In this document: positions 4,366 to 10,888 of the stretch, piece by piece
Layout: every line of letters begins with the position of its first letter
Position numbering within the stretch: position 1 is the stretch's first letter
Source: Chloroflexota bacterium
GTDB lineage: Bacteria; Chloroflexota; Dehalococcoidia; SM23-28-2; RBG-16-64-32
Direction of reading: 5' to 3'
Length of the DNA: 11,595 nt
Assembly: GCA_022560365.1 (NCBI GenBank)
Contig: JADFTG010000014.1
Span: forward strand, 1-11,595
Program-made: the position numbers and the translations under genes
Notes under the pieces: generated by a model
Told to the model about the DNA's origin: nothing
Database searches by the model: none
The model's input: the letters and a program-made list of their open reading frames with translations, nothing else

Positions 4366-4426
4366 AAGCGCGCCTGAAACCTTAGCGAAATCATTGGGCA
4401 TCCCATCTCGGGAGAGGAATCCAAAC

Positions 4427-5668
4427 ATGACTACCGAACCAGCGAAGACACATACCGAGCCCGTAAAGGACTGGACAACCGACTACGACATCTTCGACCC
4501 AGGCTACATCAGGGACCCCTTCCCCACCTGGGACGACCTCCGCGAGAAGTGCCCGGTGGCGCACACCGAACGCTGGGGCGGCTCCTGGATGCCGACCACG
4601 TACGAAGACCTGCGCAAAATCGCCGCTGACATCGAGATATTCTCCTCCCGCAACCCGCTCGTCGCTAACGTCGGCGAGCCGACCGAAGAGGTTATGGCAG
4701 ACCTGGAGAACCAGTTTTCGGTCGGCGCACCCCCCATCTCCTCAGACCCGCCGGTCCACACCTGGTCACGCGCCCTCCTCCTGCCGAAGTTCTCGATCAA
4801 GGAGGTCGCCCGCTACGAAGAGGAGACGCGGGAGCTCTGCCGTTCGCTGATCGACCGCTTTATCGACAAGGGCCGCGCCGACGCCGCCGTTGACTACGCG
4901 CAGCAGATCCCGTCGCGCGTCATCGCCAGCATGCTCGGCATCCCGCAGGAACGCGCCGGCGAGTTCACCGAATGGGTCCGCGGCTTCCTGGAGTACGGCC
5001 TGACGAACGTTGACCTGCGCAGCGGCGCGGCGATGCAGATCTTCTCGTTCCTCAACGAGCAGGTGCAGGAGCGCAAAGCTAACCCCGGCGACGACCTGAT
5101 CAGCTACCTGCTCCAGGCGAAGGCCGAGGGCGCGCCCGACCCGATCCCGGAGCCGCACGTGCTTGGCACCTGTTTCCTGCTCCTCGTAGCTGGCATCGAC
5201 ACGACCTGGAGCTCGATCGGCTCGGCGATGTGGCACCTGGCGCAGAACCCCGACGATTGCAAGCGCCTGATCGACGAGCCCGAGCTGATCACGCCGGCCG
5301 TCGAAGAGCTGCTGCGCGCCTACTCGCCGGTGACGATGGCGCGCGAAGTGACGAGGGACGCGCAGTACAACGGCTGCCAGATGAAGGAAAACGACAAGAT
5401 CCTGATGAACTTCCCGGCCGCCAACCGCGACCCGAAGAAGTTCGAGAATCCGGACCAAGTGATTCTGGACCGCGAGGTCAACCCGCACATCGCCTTCGGC
5501 GTCGGCATCCACCGCTGCGCCGGCTCCAACCTCGCCAGGATGGAGATGCGGGTGGCGATCGAAGAGTGGCTGAAGCGCATCCCGGAGTTCCGCCTGGAGG
5601 ACCCCGAGGCGGTTACCTGGGCCGGCGGTCAGGTGCGCGGGCCACGCAAGTGCGCTGTGGTGTTCTAG
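4427..5668 (+). CDS. Cytochrome P450 (soluble bacterial monooxygenase)
   Basis: The protein has 413 residues from the ATG at 4427, which has GGAGAGGA (4411-4418) upstream; an in-frame TTG 33 nt earlier lacks a ribosome site. All P450 hallmarks are present: the I-helix oxygen-activation motif AGIDTT (255-260), the K-helix E294-x2-R297 within EELLR, and the haem-binding loop FGVGIHRCAGSNLAR with the proximal thiolate at Cys364. There is no N-terminal membrane anchor, so it is a class I soluble enzyme fed by a ferredoxin; that ferredoxin follows 2 bp downstream. Such enzymes hydroxylate small lipophilic or terpenoid/steroid substrates, but the substrate cannot be read from the sequence. No ferredoxin reductase lies in the window, so electrons must come from one encoded elsewhere. 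Confidence 0.96.
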   Translation: MTTEPAKTHTEPVKDWTTDYDIFDPGYIRDPFPTWDDLREKCPVAHTERWGGSWMPTTYEDLRKIAADIEIFSSRNPLVANVGEPTEEVMADLENQFSVGAPPISSDPPVHTWSRALLLPKFSIKEVARYEEETRELCRSLIDRFIDKGRADAAVDYAQQIPSRVIASMLGIPQERAGEFTEWVRGFLEYGLTNVDLRSGAAMQIFSFLNEQVQERKANPGDDLISYLLQAKAEGAPDPIPEPHVLGTCFLLLVAGIDTTWSSIGSAMWHLAQNPDDCKRLIDEPELITPAVEELLRAYSPVTMAREVTRDAQYNGCQMKENDKILMNFPAANRDPKKFENPDQVILDREVNPHIAFGVGIHRCAGSNLARMEMRVAIEEWLKRIPEFRLEDPEAVTWAGGQVRGPRKCAVVF

Positions 5669-5670
5669 CG

Positions 5671-5871
5671 ATGCGAATCAAGGTCGATACCGAAAAGTGC
5701 GAGGGACACAACCGCTGTTTCGTAGTCGCCGCTGAGCTGTTCGAGCTCGACGACTCCGGCTACGCCCACGAGGTCGGCGACGGCAAAGTGCCGGCCGGCC
5801 TGGAGGAGAAGGCGCGCCTGGCGGTCACGAACTGCCCCGAGCAGGCGATCTCCATCGACGAAGACAAGTAG
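5671..5871 (+). CDS. Single-cluster ferredoxin, P450 redox partner
   Basis: A 66-residue acidic protein begins 2 bp after the P450 stop. The cluster-binding pattern is C10-x2-H13-x2-C16 with a distant C55-P56 (KCEGHNRC and NCPEQA), so His13 occupies the place of the second cysteine of a classical 4Fe-4S motif. Ferredoxins of this size next to actinobacterial P450s carry a 3Fe-4S or histidine-variant 4Fe-4S cluster and pass single electrons to the P450. The tight spacing argues for co-transcription and a dedicated partnership. There is no second cluster motif. The cluster type is inferred, not seen. Confidence 0.93.
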   Translation: MRIKVDTEKCEGHNRCFVVAAELFELDDSGYAHEVGDGKVPAGLEEKARLAVTNCPEQAISIDEDK

Positions 5872-6527: not shown

Positions 6528-7925
6528 TCAGCGGCTGCGGGGGCGGCCGCGCTTCGGGCGCTCCGGCGCCTGCTTGCCCCAGAAGTCAAAGCGGCCCATC
6601 AGGAGGATCGTGCTCACTTGCGGGTCTGTCAGGCGCGAGGCGAGGCGTCCGTCCAAGTCGCGGACGGTGAGGTTCGTGGTGATTACGGTGGGCAGGCAGG
6701 CGTTGTAGCGATGGTTGAGGAGCTGGAAGAGCTTCTCGTCGGCCCAGGCAGTGCCGCTTTGAGAGCCGAGGTCGTCGAGGATCAGGAGCGGGACGTTGCG
6801 CACCTGGTCGAACATCTCGTCAAAGGCGCGAGGGTTGGCGGGGTTGTAGGCGGCCCGCAGCCGGTCCAGCAGATCCGGCACGACGACGAACATCGCCGGG
6901 CGGCTGGCTTCCCGGCAGTAGTTACCGATGGCGGCAGCGAGCCTGGTCTTGCCGTGCCCGGTGGCGCCCGCGATGACCAGCCAGTCCTTGGGCTCCTCCG
7001 CGAACTTCATCCCCTGCCGGTAGGCGTTCTGCACCTCTTTGAGCTCGTCCGAGTCGCTCGCGAGCAGGCGTGAGTCGAACGTCTTGAACGTCATGCCGCG
7101 CAGGAGCGGCAAATCCAGAGAGTCCAGTCCGGAGAGGCCTGAGTCCGTGCCTGACTCCAGGTAGTGCACCTGCGACAGAGCGACGTCCGTGAGGCGCGTC
7201 TGGATGCGGGCGTCGAAGGCCGCCGGGTCGAGGTTCGTCGTGATGACGGTAGGCGTCTGGGCGCTGTAGCGGTGGTTGATCAGCTGGAAGAGCTTCTCCT
7301 CCGCCCACGGCGTGGCGCTCTGCACGCCAAGATCGTCCAGCACCAGCACCGGCGCGTTGCGCACCATCTCGAACAGCTCGTCGTAGCTGACCTCGCTGCC
7401 GGGCTGGTAGGCCGCCCGCAGGTGATCGAGCAGGTCGGGCACAACCATGAAGAGCGCCGCCTGCCCGTTGGCGATGCAGCCACCAGCGATCGCCGCCGAG
7501 AGGTGCGTCTTGCCGCAGCCGCTGGGCCCCGTGAGGACGAGCCAGCCGGACGGCGTCTCGACGAATGCGTGCGCCGCCGCGACCGCCTTGGCGAACGCTT
7601 CCTGGTGCGCCGGGCTGGGGCTGCGGCCGCGCGGGCTCAGCTCTTCGAACGTGAGCCGGGAGAGCGCGCCGAGGCCGCTGTAGCGCAGCAGCCGCGCCGT
7701 CTTCTCGTCGTCCCGTTCGTCCTCGGTGCAGACGCAGGGCAGCGCCTTGCCGAAGTCGGGATGGCCGAGGTGTACGCGCAAGCGGACGTAGCCGGCGCCG
7801 CCGCAGTGCTGACAAGCGTTTTCGTCTTCCGTCGCGTCAGGAACGGCTCCCGGAGGGGCGTCGCTTGCCCTCTCTGAAACGCCGCTCAAGCCACTCGATT
7901 TGAGGATCTCGCTCAGACTTTTCAT
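6528..7925 (-). CDS. DnaC/DnaI-type helicase loader with two tandem AAA+ modules
   Basis: This 465-residue protein is about twice the length of the AAA+ part of ordinary loaders. Residues 38-66 hold a zinc-finger pattern (C38-x2-C41, C64-x-C66). Module 1 has Walker A GPSGCGKT (133-140), Walker B VLVLDDLG (193-200), sensor-1 TTN (229-231) and TRLTD (243-247). Module 2 repeats these at exactly +187: GATGHGKT (320-327), LLILDDLG (380-387), TTN (416-418), SRLTD (430-434). Aligned by hand without gaps, 64 of 105 residues agree (127-231 against 314-418). Both ATP sites look intact. The C-terminus is basic ([10 protein letters not shown]). Such proteins load the DnaB ring onto single-stranded DNA. 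The genes upstream in the operon are dnaB and a dnaD-like gene, which supports this role. The ATG at 7925 has GGAAGGG about 8 nt upstream and lies inside the previous gene. Confidence 0.9.
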
Positions 7926-8589
7926 AGCTCGGCCCTTCCGTCTCCCAGCGCCGCAGAATGCTCGCCACGTAGCGCCAACTCCGCTTGTTCAACTCAACCG
8001 CCTCACGCACCGCCTCGCGCACCCATTCGGCCGGGTATCGCTCCTCGGCGTCCTTCAGTTCGTCGGCGATCAACGGCGTGATGCTGCCGATGTTCTCCTC
8101 GTAGAGCGTGAAGATGTCCGGAGCAGCCTCGCCCGGCGCCGGTGGCAGAGGCTCCTGCAGGCGGACCTCGGGCAGCGACTCCAGCGCCCGGTAGTTCGAC
8201 GGGTTGTTGACTGCGTAGACCTCTCCTGCGGATCCGTCGGAAGCCTCGCCGCTGAGCGCCCGGATCAGCGTGCCGCGCTTCACCGCCAGGTCGAGTCCGC
8301 GGCTCATGGCCTGATGGTCCGTTCCGTCCGCGGTGTCCATCGGACCTGTCAGGTTCGCCAGCGCCCGGACGAGCGCGCGGTCGGCGGCCAGCTCTTCGCG
8401 GCTGACATAGTGCGGCCGGCGCTTGTGGAGCTGCGCCGCGAAGAAGAAGTACGCTGAAACGACCAGCTCCGCCGGGTCGCTGATCTCCGGCATGACGCGC
8501 GAGAAGAAGAGATTGGGCACGGCCGTCGCCAGCCCCGAGTCCGGAAACCCAGTGAACCCCGCGGAGCCGTCTACGGCAGCCCCGGTCAC
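7837..8589 (-). CDS. DnaD-domain replication initiation protein
   Basis: This 250-residue protein starts at a GTG that overlaps the dnaB stop as GTGA. Residues about 25-135 form an N-terminal region with a winged-helix-like character (FFSRVMPEISDPAELVVSAY, VSREELAADRALVRALANL). Residues about 158-217 are a DnaD C-terminal domain (FTLYEENIGSITPLIADEL, then WVREAVREAVELNKRSWRYV and ASILRRW). In Bacillus the DnaD/DnaB(Bsu) proteins with this domain bind DNA and help deliver the replicative helicase at origins and stalled forks. Its place between dnaB and a DnaI-type loader fits that role. Its last 29 codons overlap the start of the loader gene in another frame. It is not called dnaD because orthology to the Bacillus gene cannot be shown here. 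Confidence 0.85.
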   Translation of the reverse strand: MTGAAVDGSAGFTGFPDSGLATAVPNLFFSRVMPEISDPAELVVSAYFFFAAQLHKRRPHYVSREELAADRALVRALANLTGPMDTADGTDHQAMSRGLDLAVKRGTLIRALSGEASDGSAGEVYAVNNPSNYRALESLPEVRLQEPLPPAPGEAAPDIFTLYEENIGSITPLIADELKDAEERYPAEWVREAVREAVELNKRSWRYVASILRRWETEGPSYEKSERDPQIEWLERRFREGKRRPSGSRS

Positions 8590-10022
8590 TCCTGGCCCTC
8601 CCACTCTGTCTCTGCCGGCGGCTCGGGCTCGCGCATCAACAGGTCCTCGAAGCGGGCGATCTTCTCGCGGAAGCGGAGGTGGATCGTGCCGGTGGCGCCG
8701 TTGCGGTGCTTGGCGACGATCAGCTGCGTGATCCCCGCGGGGTACTCGCGCCGGCGCTCGTCGCCGGAGTGGTCGCGGTCCCACTGCTCCCGGCTCACGT
8801 ACTTGTCCTCGCGGTAGATGAACATGACGACGTCGGCGTCCTGCTCGATGCTGCCGGACTCGCGGAGATCGCTGAGCATCGGGATGTTGTTGGCACGGTG
8901 CTCGGAGGCGCGGGAAAGCTGCGAGCAGGCGACCACCGGGACGTCGAGGTCACGCGCCAGCTGTTTGAGGGCGCGCGAAATGTAGCTCACTTCTTGCACG
9001 CGGTTCTCGTTGCGCGCGCCGGAGCTCATCAGCTGCAGGTAGTCGACGACGATCAGGTCGAGCCCGCGCTCCAGTTGCAGACGCCGCGCCTTGGCCCGCA
9101 TCTCAGCGACGGTCAGCGTCGCGGCGTCGTCGAAGTAGAGCGGCAGTTCGCTGAGCACGCCCAGCGCCTGCATGATCTTTCCTTCTTCGCGTTCCGAGTA
9201 GGTGCCGAGGACGAGGCGCGTCGAGTCGACGCCCGCTTCCATCGCGACCGTACGCTGCACGAGCTGATCGGCCGCCATCTCGACGGAGAAGAAGCCGACC
9301 ACGGCGTTGTGCCGGAGCGCGGCGTTGCGGGCGAAGTTGAGGACGAGCGACGTCTTGCCGAGGCTGGGCCGCGCCGCGACGATGATCAGGTCGCCGCGCT
9401 TGAGGCCCGGCGCGAGCATCGTGTCGAGGTCCGCGTAACCGGAGGTGACAGCGCGCGACTGAGCGGCGACGGCCGCAGTGCCGGTCTCAAGTTGCTCCAT
9501 GTAACCGGAGAGCAGGTCGCGGATGTGCTGGAAGTCGCGCAGGGACTCGCCCTGACGCACGCCGGCGATCAGCGTCTCGGCCTGGCCGAGGGCGTCACCA
9601 ACGTCCGCACCGCCCCGGTAGGCGATCTGGGCGATCTGCCCGGCGGCCGTGATCATCTTGCGGTAGGTGGCGTCGCGCTGGACGATGCCCGCGTAGTTCT
9701 CGACGCCGACGGACGTTGGCAGGTCAGTGACGAGGCGGCTCAGGTAGGCGAGGCCGCCGACGTCTTCCAGGCGACCGCTTCGATCGAGTTCATGGGCAAC
9801 GGTGATCTGGTTGATCGCCTCGTTACGGTCCCAGAGGGCGCGGCAGGCGTCGTAGATCCAGCCGTTCTTTTCGCGGAAGAAGTCGTCGCCCTTGAGCCGA
9901 GGCGCAACTTTGAAGATCGCTTCGGGGTCGACGAGAAGCGAAGCGACGACCGCTTCTTCGGCCTCGTTGTCGTGGGGCGGCAGCTTCTCGCCGCCCCTGG
10001 CGGGTCCGGATTCTACAACCAT
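8586..10022 (-). CDS. dnaB: Replicative DNA helicase DnaB
   Basis: This 478-residue protein is of normal DnaB length. The N-terminal domain begins KLPPHDNEAEEAVVASLL (13-30) and includes GGLAYLSRL. After the linker helix the RecA-like motor has Walker A ARPSLGKT (217-224), Walker B LDLIVVDYLQLM (321-332), VACSQLSR (364-371) and DLRESGSIEQDAD (385-397). DnaB forms the hexameric 5'-3' helicase ring that unwinds the fork and contacts primase. No intein interrupts the usual insertion sites. The ATG at 10022 lacks a clear Shine-Dalgarno sequence, so translation may depend on the preceding gene rplI, 71 bp upstream. The rplI-dnaB order is widely conserved. The stop overlaps the start of the DnaD-domain gene by 4 nt. 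Confidence 0.98.
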   Translation of the reverse strand: MVVESGPARGGEKLPPHDNEAEEAVVASLLVDPEAIFKVAPRLKGDDFFREKNGWIYDACRALWDRNEAINQITVAHELDRSGRLEDVGGLAYLSRLVTDLPTSVGVENYAGIVQRDATYRKMITAAGQIAQIAYRGGADVGDALGQAETLIAGVRQGESLRDFQHIRDLLSGYMEQLETGTAAVAAQSRAVTSGYADLDTMLAPGLKRGDLIIVAARPSLGKTSLVLNFARNAALRHNAVVGFFSVEMAADQLVQRTVAMEAGVDSTRLVLGTYSEREEGKIMQALGVLSELPLYFDDAATLTVAEMRAKARRLQLERGLDLIVVDYLQLMSSGARNENRVQEVSYISRALKQLARDLDVPVVACSQLSRASEHRANNIPMLSDLRESGSIEQDADVVMFIYREDKYVSREQWDRDHSGDERRREYPAGITQLIVAKHRNGATGTIHLRFREKIARFEDLLMREPEPPAETEWEGQE

Positions 10023-10093: not shown

Positions 10094-10888
10094 TTAGGAG
10101 CCGTCCTGGCTGGCGTTCCCCTTCTCTGGTTCTTCCGTCGCCTCAGGCGCGGAAGACGTCTCGGTAGTGGTTTCTTCTTCTGCAACCGGGGCCGCTTCCT
10201 CGGCCGGTGTTTCGTCCGCGGAGGCTTCGGCGGCGGCCGGCTTCTCCTCAGCGGTCTCGTCCTCGATGGCGGCTTCAGTGGTCTCATCCTCACTCGCGGC
10301 TTCGGTGGTCTCGACCTCCGCAGCGGTCTCGGTGGCGGCTTCGGTCGTGGCTTCGGTGGTCTCACCCTCGGTGGCGGCTTCAGGCGCCTCTGTCTCCTCG
10401 GGCGCCTCGGGCGCCTCGGGCTCGGGCTCCGGCATGCCGCCTTCGGGGTGGACGTTGACGGTAATTTTGGCGATCACGTTGCGGGTGAGCTTGACCGACA
10501 CCTCGTGGGTGCCGATCTCGCGGATCGGCTGATTGAGGGCGACCTGCCTGTGTTCCAGCTCGACGCCGGTGTCCGCCTGCAGTCGCTCGGCGATGTCGCG
10601 CGAGGTGACGGAGCCGAACAGCTTGCCCTGCTCGCCAACAAGGACCTCGATCGTCATCTCCTGGCCTTCGACGAGGGGGAGCAGGCGCTCACGGGCCTCT
10701 TCGTCCACGCGGTCCTGGCGCTTTGCTTCCTTCGTCGCTTTCTGCTCGGCGATGGCGATGTAGTGCTTCGTCGCCGGGGCAGCGAGCTTGCGCGGGAGGA
10801 GGTAGTTGCGCGCGAAGCCATCAGCGACGTTCTTGACGTCGCCGGTGCGCGCGGTGCCTTCAACCTCTTCGAGGAATACGACCTTCAT
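10094..10888 (-). CDS. rplI: 50S ribosomal protein L9 with long acidic C-terminal tail
   Basis: The protein has 264 residues where L9 normally has about 150. Residues 1-150 are ordinary L9: MKVVFLEEVEGTARTGDVKN, the YLLPRKLA signature (29-36), a long charged connecting helix, and the C-terminal domain with GKLFGSVTSRDIAE (88-101). L9 binds 23S rRNA at the base of the L1 stalk and helps hold the reading frame. Residues 152-264 are a low-complexity tail built from Glu, Thr, Ala and Pro, with 35 Glu, 4 Asp, 2 Lys and no Arg. The ATG at 10888 has AAGGAG 7 nt upstream; the in-frame extension to 10978 is leader sequence. The gene has its own promoter and leads the replication operon. Confidence 0.95.
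   Translation of the reverse strand: MKVVFLEEVEGTARTGDVKNVADGFARNYLLPRKLAAPATKHYIAIAEQKATKEAKRQDRVDEEARERLLPLVEGQEMTIEVLVGEQGKLFGSVTSRDIAERLQADTGVELEHRQVALNQPIREIGTHEVSVKLTRNVIAKITVNVHPEGGMPEPEPEAPEAPEETEAPEAATEGETTEATTEAATETAAEVETTEAASEDETTEAAIEDETAEEKPAAAEASADETPAEEAAPVAEEETTTETSSAPEATEEPEKGNASQDGS

Follow-up and report, generated by a model that had tools for sequence, protein, structure and literature searches.

Tandem AAA+ modules in a probable DnaC/DnaI-type helicase loader of the Dehalococcoidia

We analysed a stretch of 11,595 nucleotides (nt) from a Chloroflexota bacterium (contig JADFTG010000014.1; "the window" below is this whole stretch), which carries on its reverse strand, at 6528..7925, a gene for a helicase loader with two AAA+ modules in one chain. 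The tandem arrangement is genuine and old, a variant of the DnaC/DnaI loader that most of the sampled genomes of the class Dehalococcoidia carry. Throughout, class stands for Dehalococcoidia and phylum for Chloroflexota, following the GTDB lineage of the window's genome.

One chain carries two AAA+ modules

The open reading frame encodes 465 amino acids (aa) from an ATG start and matches Pfam IstB_IS21 at 124.3 bits in two stretches, and NCBIfam PRK08116 at 216 bits (cut-off 189). A region of four cysteines (Cys4: C38, C41, C64 and C66; 7728..7814), which likely binds zinc and is a presumed counterpart of the helicase-binding domain (HBD) of DnaI, is followed by the N module (residues 83-257; 7155..7679), an inter-module linker (residues 258-271; 7113..7154) and the C module (residues 272-446; 6588..7112), all on the reverse strand, as are the motifs below. 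In the AlphaFold2 (AF2) model, the linker has a low predicted local distance difference test score (pLDDT) at residues 259-264. Conservation was counted over 410 tandem sequences, a set weighted towards relatives of the window (120) and relatives of Dehalococcoides mccartyi (120), repeats included. The four Cys positions hold Cys in 376, 377, 407 and 404 of these, the remainder being mostly gaps. Walker A reads GPSGCGKT in the N module (7506..7529; K139) and GATGHGKT in the C module (6945..6968; K326), with the Lys present in 409/410 and 410/410 sequences. Each module ends its motif series with an Arg coupler and an Arg finger, named after R216/R220 of DnaC (excerpt of PMC8213410) by spacing and alignment position: R240 and R244 in the N module (7194..7208; Arg in 399/410 and 399/410), R427 and R431 in the C module (6633..6647; Arg in 284/410 for the coupler and 404/410 for the finger).

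A sequence-only reading of this DNA had reported that Walker A, Walker B, sensor-1 and an SR/TRLTD motif each occur twice, 187 residues apart, with 64 of 105 residues identical. Motif positions and self-alignment confirm this. The paired motifs all lie 187 residues apart (Walker A 133/320, LDDLG 196/383, TTN 229/416, [ST]RLTD 243/430), and at that offset 64 of 105 residues are identical over 127-231 and 81 of 174 over 83-256, gap-free. Across residues 101-450 the self-match peaks at 77, at offset 187, and none of 500 shuffles exceeded 36. The same reading's description of the protein as of DnaC/DnaI type, with a single Cys4 region and two AAA+ modules, also holds. It had called both modules complete; two modules there are, and the completeness fails at the sensor-2 Arg column, which is Ser and Trp here.

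The 561-bp DNA repeat that had been noted is likewise present. AGCTGGAAGAGCTTCTC occurs at both 6721 and 7282, and the repeat as a whole spans 230 nt at 74% likeness with a spacing of 561, one copy lying in the N module (7230..7459) and one in the C module (6669..6898), both on the reverse strand. Third codon positions match between the copies at 58%, against a control-offset mean of 43% (maximum 57%), the GC content of third positions (GC3) is 0.89, and the same codon is used at 46 of the 71 residues common to both modules. The likeness of the two DNA copies is mostly protein-level; the third-position and codon comparison, together with the module trees described below, therefore indicates that the duplication is not recent. 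We rejected the DNA repeat as a functional repeat because it mostly tracks protein conservation and high GC3, and a special basic C-terminal tail was also rejected, since tandem and single-module loaders alike have a median of 6 Arg or Lys in their last 20 residues.

The tandem form is widespread in the class

We surveyed 147 class genomes, 146 with a completeness of 90% or more plus that of the window at 76%, at a match threshold of E <= 1e-20. A loader matched in 143 of them: 135 carried the tandem form (114 through a single match spanning both modules, 21 through locus parsing), six a one-module form (G043, G056, G459, G464, G475, G481), and two were cut by contig ends (G447, G474). The remaining four (G454, G485, G492, G510) had no match at that threshold. 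The genome search that the sequence-only reading had called for thus finds the 187-residue duplication in 135 of 147 class genomes, and the assembly collapse it had named as a danger is excluded by these genomes, among which are single-contig ones such as G037. With the G037 loader as query, we retrieved an ATP-binding protein of Dehalococcoides mccartyi (470 aa, 98% identical, both modules). Named related loci, of which the top 80 in a longer list were fetched, were tandem in 80 of 80 cases; 16 of these share their loader with an unnamed locus. Across the phylum, 274 of 399 genomes matched at E <= 1e-12, 75 of these belonging to the class; among 49 parsed non-class loci, hand-chosen and non-random, 33 were tandem and 16 single. 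All 13 viral relatives found have one module. The tandem form is real, old and widespread in the class.

Two sets of genomes count against so general a statement. G008, a genome of the same family as the window (78% complete; locus L244), carries its modules in two different overlapping frames with a frame break between them and an altered Walker A (GPSGCDKT); we take this copy to be broken or wrongly assembled. G060 (71% complete) gave no match, and G033, G035, G039 and G045 gave weak matches only. The frame break in G008 and the high DNA likeness at 561 bp are what an assembly artefact or a recent local duplication would predict; we give that explanation next to no credence, as 135 of 147 class genomes and all of the 80 best named loci are tandem, and the N and C modules diverged long ago on the trees. 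One tandem loader (L219, genome G327) has an insert of about 30 residues between the two Walker motifs, A and B, of its N module; a third module there was rejected, because the N module with its insert is matched in two pieces.

The duplication is old and the N module was probably lost in some families

Three module trees were compared. A 53-row mixture-model tree held 24 of 111 parsed loci and 6 further loci of family f24, a wider tree held 49 of the 111 and 6 of 13 viral rows (the viral outgroup did not form one side of a branch), and the widest, quick tree held 70 of the 111; L033, L040, L042 and L056 were dropped as duplicate genomes. On the 53-row tree the class N and C modules separate at 90/97. 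On the wider tree one group gathers the class N modules (81/72), and a second holds most C modules from several classes (93/80). Because the class N and C modules sit apart in the trees, the duplication likely predates the class. An ancient duplication with unequal halves is highly probable. The larger trees speak less clearly for this history. The wider one is less clean, with L024_C and L071_C outside the C group and the N modules from outside the class in no single group; the widest one puts L113_C and L107_C next to N modules and L112_N next to C modules, in parts of the tree with long branches; and the wider trees do not establish a single duplication across all classes.

All seven class one-module loaders on the 53-row tree, from families f24, f37 and f62, fall among the C modules, which makes repeated loss of the N module likely. 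The best tree has four such losses, and starred branches require at least two. Family f24 has tandem and one-module forms side by side, and in its short forms, judged by eye, the Cys4 region runs straight into the second linker and the C module, with one repeat unit gone. The natural one-module forms L097, L210-L213 (f24), L098 and L099 consist of Cys4 region, second linker and C module. In two of these (L099 and L210, by eye) sensor-1 is Arg and the coupler is not Arg, as in many tandem C modules.

The two halves differ

Parts that bind ATP or reach a neighbouring module are nearly fixed in both halves. Besides the Walker A Lys and the Arg finger, the first Walker B Asp is kept in 410/410 N and 409/410 C modules, and the position of DnaC Tyr179, which contacts single-stranded DNA (ssDNA), is Trp in 410/410 of each. 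The coupler is eroded only in the C half, and the sensor-1 Asn in both (N 188/410, C 136/410). Counts by class, made on 92 tandem proteins (59 from the class, 33 from outside) and 19 single-module proteins, separate the halves further. Sensor-1 Asn is present in the class in 21/59 N and 16/59 C modules, and outside it in 32/33 N and 10/33 C modules and in 16/16 single-module proteins. Sensor-2 Arg is found in 34/59 C modules of the class, where the N pattern was found in 3/59, and outside the class in 23/33 N modules, 18/33 C modules and 16/16 single-module proteins. The window's protein has the sensor-1 Asn in both halves and no Arg in the sensor-2 column. The sequence-only reading had allowed that each half could have a specialised role; the halves do differ, at the sensors and the coupler.

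In E. coli DnaC, the sensor-1 mutant is the most impaired in loading, sensor-2 and Walker A mutants load like the wild type, and the coupler restrains ATP turnover until ssDNA binds (excerpt of PMC8213410). We infer a division of labour between the halves from these sequences, because the ATP-binding and neighbour-reaching parts are fixed, while those that tune hydrolysis are not the same in the two halves. An alternative, in which the loader ring consists of C modules alone and the N module, as an ATP-binding appendage with a regulatory or DNA-holding role, builds no ring, would suit the scarcity of sensor-2 Arg (3/59) and of sensor-1 Asn (21/59 kept) in class N modules, as well as the one-module class forms, which are without N. 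We consider it unlikely. The N module keeps its Walker A Lys, its finger and its coupler almost throughout, and a finger is pointless without a neighbour; outside the class, moreover, it is the N half that is better kept at sensor 1.

The tandem protein is the predicted resident loader of DnaB

The loader gene lies downstream of rplI, dnaB and dnaD, all on the reverse strand. A dnaD-domain gene (7837..8589, with a candidate GTG start at 8589) matches Pfam DnaB_2 at 38.3 bits (cut-off 22) and NCBIfam DnaD_dom at 46.3 bits (cut-off 24.95); the replicative helicase gene dnaB (8586..10022) matches TIGR00665 at 482.8 bits (cut-off 385); and upstream of dnaB, rplI (10094..10888), encoding bL9, matches Ribosomal_L9_N at 63.9 bits and Ribosomal_L9_C at 87.1 bits. 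Whether the dnaB-dnaD-loader order is kept had been posed as a check on the tandem loader, and it is. Among loci with at least 2.3 kb upstream, dnaD and dnaB each lie upstream of 94/100 tandem loaders, or of 81/86 after 16 duplicate records are dropped. For all single-module loci with the same room the figures are 15/17 (dnaD) and 12/17 (dnaB). Many related loci also have rplI-like frames adjoining dnaB. One natural protein of 671 aa (P0193) has a DnaD domain fused to the tandem loader, the sole fusion among the proteins looked at; a DnaD fusion in L226-L228 was rejected, because what lies upstream in these long open frames does not resemble DnaD.

Of 201 phylum genomes, 71 have DciA, and no class member is among them. 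It was found in 0 of 99 non-class loader-positive genomes (handles up to G256) and in 17 of 20 listed genomes without a loader. We obtained no DciA match in the window's genome, which has one loader match, and none in 19 further genomes, class one-module forms and class genomes without a loader match included. A loader match and DciA never occur together in any genome of the compared lists. Because of the rplI-dnaB-dnaD neighbourhood and this mutual exclusion with DciA, and with the DnaD fusion in view, the tandem protein is very probably this organism's resident loader of DnaB. Two points temper this prediction: DnaB binding is itself predicted, from gene neighbourhood, fusion and DciA exclusivity, and the window's genome is 76% complete. 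In the available text of Brezellec et al. 2016 (PMC5109545), on DciA, a single domestication of dna[CI] in Chloroflexi is described; the string "duplic" is absent from the main text of that paper.

The protein might instead be an IstB- or DnaA-like ATPase that adjoins dnaB by chance and is not a DnaB loader. Its best Pfam name is IstB_IS21, Bac_DnaA also matches, and its top fold match is DnaA. Against these stand the neighbourhood, the DnaD fusion and the exclusion of DciA in the compared lists, the absence of a DnaA C-terminal domain among 23 Pfam matches, and the four-residue spacing of coupler and finger; the coupler lacks a clear counterpart in IstB (excerpted text of PMC8213410). We regard this alternative as very improbable.

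Several further features of these genomes and loci were recorded. The four class genomes without a confident family loader (G454, G485, G492, G510; at least 90% complete; weak matches or none on re-search) have no DciA, and three f67 genomes (G065, G076, G093; at least 90% complete) have neither a loader at E <= 1e-12 nor DciA. One-module loaders of family f71 (L092, L101-L104) adjoin dnaD and have no dnaB within 3.5 kb upstream in 5/5 loci with room. The Pfam match of bL9 in the window stops at residue 147 of 264 and is followed by a low-complexity tail of more than 100 residues rich in Glu, Thr and Ala; rplI-like frames beside dnaB in relatives are about 150 to 410 aa long as open frames. 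Elsewhere in the window, a cytochrome P450 gene on the forward strand (4394-5871; Pfam p450, 91 bits) overlaps at its end a small 4Fe-4S ferredoxin gene (Fer4_15, 60.9 bits).

Proposed packing of the modules on DnaB

DnaC of E. coli assembles as six protomers in a cracked hexamer with composite ATP sites, its AAA+ fold binding ssDNA and its HBDs holding DnaB (excerpt of PMC8213410). DnaI of B. subtilis binds DnaB as a trimer of dimers, and the two members of a dimer contact DnaB differently (excerpt of PMC3791466). For the tandem loader we tentatively prefer an arrangement of six chains in which modules pack like with like in two tiers over a three-chain ring, on account of the C-C covariation and of the loss of N modules only: were C modules already packed on one another, such a loss would call for no new contact. 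The Cys4 region would hold DnaB, as in DnaI, and ATP between neighbouring modules would keep an open spiral around ssDNA. The C module might be the core motor, since it is the one that the shortened genes retain; the N module might add a tier, lengthening the grip on ssDNA or stiffening the open ring. Six chains would then bring six DnaB contacts and twelve modules. The full picture, which we hold more loosely than the packing itself, has six tandem chains forming a pair of AAA+ spirals stacked beneath DnaB, an N-module spiral and a C-module spiral that each grip ssDNA. Within the DnaC/DnaA (initiator) clade this would be the first machine with two tiers, pared in several lineages to a single C tier.

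The three-chain ring, which the sequence-only reading had put forward, treats the chain as a covalent dimer whose modules share a single plane: each DnaB hexamer would take three chains, with N and C modules alternating in a six-module spiral and fingers serving the other half's site. It keeps six modules on six DnaB subunits, it recalls the non-equivalent DnaB contacts of the DnaI trimer of dimers in the excerpt of PMC3791466, and both fingers and both Walker A sites are retained. In such a ring each coupler would face the other half's pocket; in like-with-like tiers it would face a pocket of its own kind. Direct-coupling analysis links the C coupler to the C pocket and not to the N pocket. 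The top partners of the C coupler are C sensor-1 (z 11.4, rank 4 of 99,235) and position 322 of the C P-loop (z 10.2, rank 5), with N sensor-1 weaker (z 2.8, rank 1211) and N P-loop positions at rank 11,796 or lower. The C coupler is non-Arg in 85 of 107 tabulated rows with Arg at C sensor-1; in an alternating ring, a C sensor-1 turned Arg would meet the near-invariant N coupler Arg. Pocket-finger block means are lower across modules (-0.26, -0.05) than within them (0.29, 0.28), a gap that is partly baseline. Loss of the N module would also demand an immediate new C-C contact from an alternating ring, yet it is seen in three families. We conclude that the covariation seen between C coupler and C pocket weakly favours like-with-like packing, and that the alternating ring, though a serious contender, is the more doubtful arrangement; covariation and N-only loss fit like-with-like packing somewhat better, neither being decisive.

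A number of results weigh against the two-tier reading. The raw mutual information of the C coupler is nearly the same with N sensor-1 (0.54 bits) as with C sensor-1 (0.60 bits), and blocks drawn at random already score 0.17 z higher within modules than across them. Under tree control (pairs on starred branches, 10 of 180 representatives left out), the trend persists with low power: the seven independent pairs that differ in Arg at C sensor-1 had the coupler changing in the opposite direction in 4.4, in the same in 0.1 and unchanged in 2.5, with a median p of 0.125 and too few pairs, and Asn at C sensor-1 showed no trend (0.7 same, 1.1 opposite of 12). For Asn at N sensor-1, five pairs gave 1.0 same, 0.4 opposite and 3.7 unchanged. 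The N side is without covariation power because its coupler is almost invariant. The coupling of coupler and sensor could also come from within one module or from loss shared by a clade. The AF2 model has a predicted template-modelling score (pTM) of 0.52 and does not define the relative placement of the two modules; stacked tiers are a prediction from sequence. Among N-C covariation contacts, computed after 2 of 412 sequences were left out for low coverage, the top cross-module pair reached z 7.4 (A114-T413), with no coherent interface. Foldseek overlays of both modules on the type II AAA+ proteins p97 and Rix7 were poor (root-mean-square deviation 7-9.5 A, template-modelling (TM) score about 0.2-0.33), and the p97 matches were rejected as a guide to the arrangement because of their low TM.

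Comparison with known loaders

A search of open-licence PubMed Central (titles and abstract starts) did not find the tandem loader described. Arguments on how many chains and ATP sites it takes to open one DnaB ring have drawn on DnaC of E. coli (6:6) and on the trimer of dimers of Bacillus DnaI. The usual picture of loaders as rings of one-module subunits would need revising for most sampled class members, including Dehalococcoides, which breathes chlorinated solvents and whose species D. mccartyi is a cultured representative of the tandem form. The linkage of two ATPase modules was kept over most of the class and undone in at least three families (f24, f37 and f62), with the C-type module retained each time. 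Tandem loaders, one-module revertants and canonical one-module relatives make up a natural series that lets stoichiometry and the role of each ATP site be probed.

The tandem protein contains the PF01695 (AAA-CI) domain (124.3 bits against 24.1) in two stretches, and in both halves (R240/R244, R427/R431) it has the four-residue spacing of coupler and finger, as defined in the excerpt of PMC8213410. It passes the subfamily model PRK08116 (216 of 189 bits) and falls below the NCBI equivalogs for DnaI (PRK08939, 121.5 of 228 bits), DnaC (PRK07952, 111.3 of 357) and DnaA (TIGR00362, 79 of 344), as well as the IS21 IstB model NF038214 (152 of 200). DciA (PF05258) is not among its Pfam matches; DciA, of a different family, has the same presumed role in other families of the phylum, a role taken from the available part of PMC5109545.

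Compared with Bacillus DnaI and E. coli DnaC, which have one HBD and one AAA+ module carrying a sensor-1 Asn and a sensor-2 Arg, the tandem loader has two modules per chain, and the two sensor residues are eroded half by half. Single-module loaders from other families within the phylum (f71, f73, f102, f105, f76, f68) have an alignable Cys region. Unlike the tandem form, they have one module with canonical sensors (sensor-1 Asn in 16/16, sensor-2 Arg in 16/16), and they have dnaD upstream in 12/14 and dnaB in 9/14 loci with at least 2.3 kb upstream, the five without dnaB all being f71. Phage loaders on 13 viral contigs have an alignable module, with most matches extending into the Cys region, and differ in having one module in 13/13. 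The type II proteins p97 and Rix7 share with the tandem loader two AAA+ modules per chain; their stacked rings would be the analogy for two tiers, and they belong to another AAA+ clade. Because it has two modules, we place the protein as a duplicated derivative of DnaC/DnaI and not as an ordinary member.
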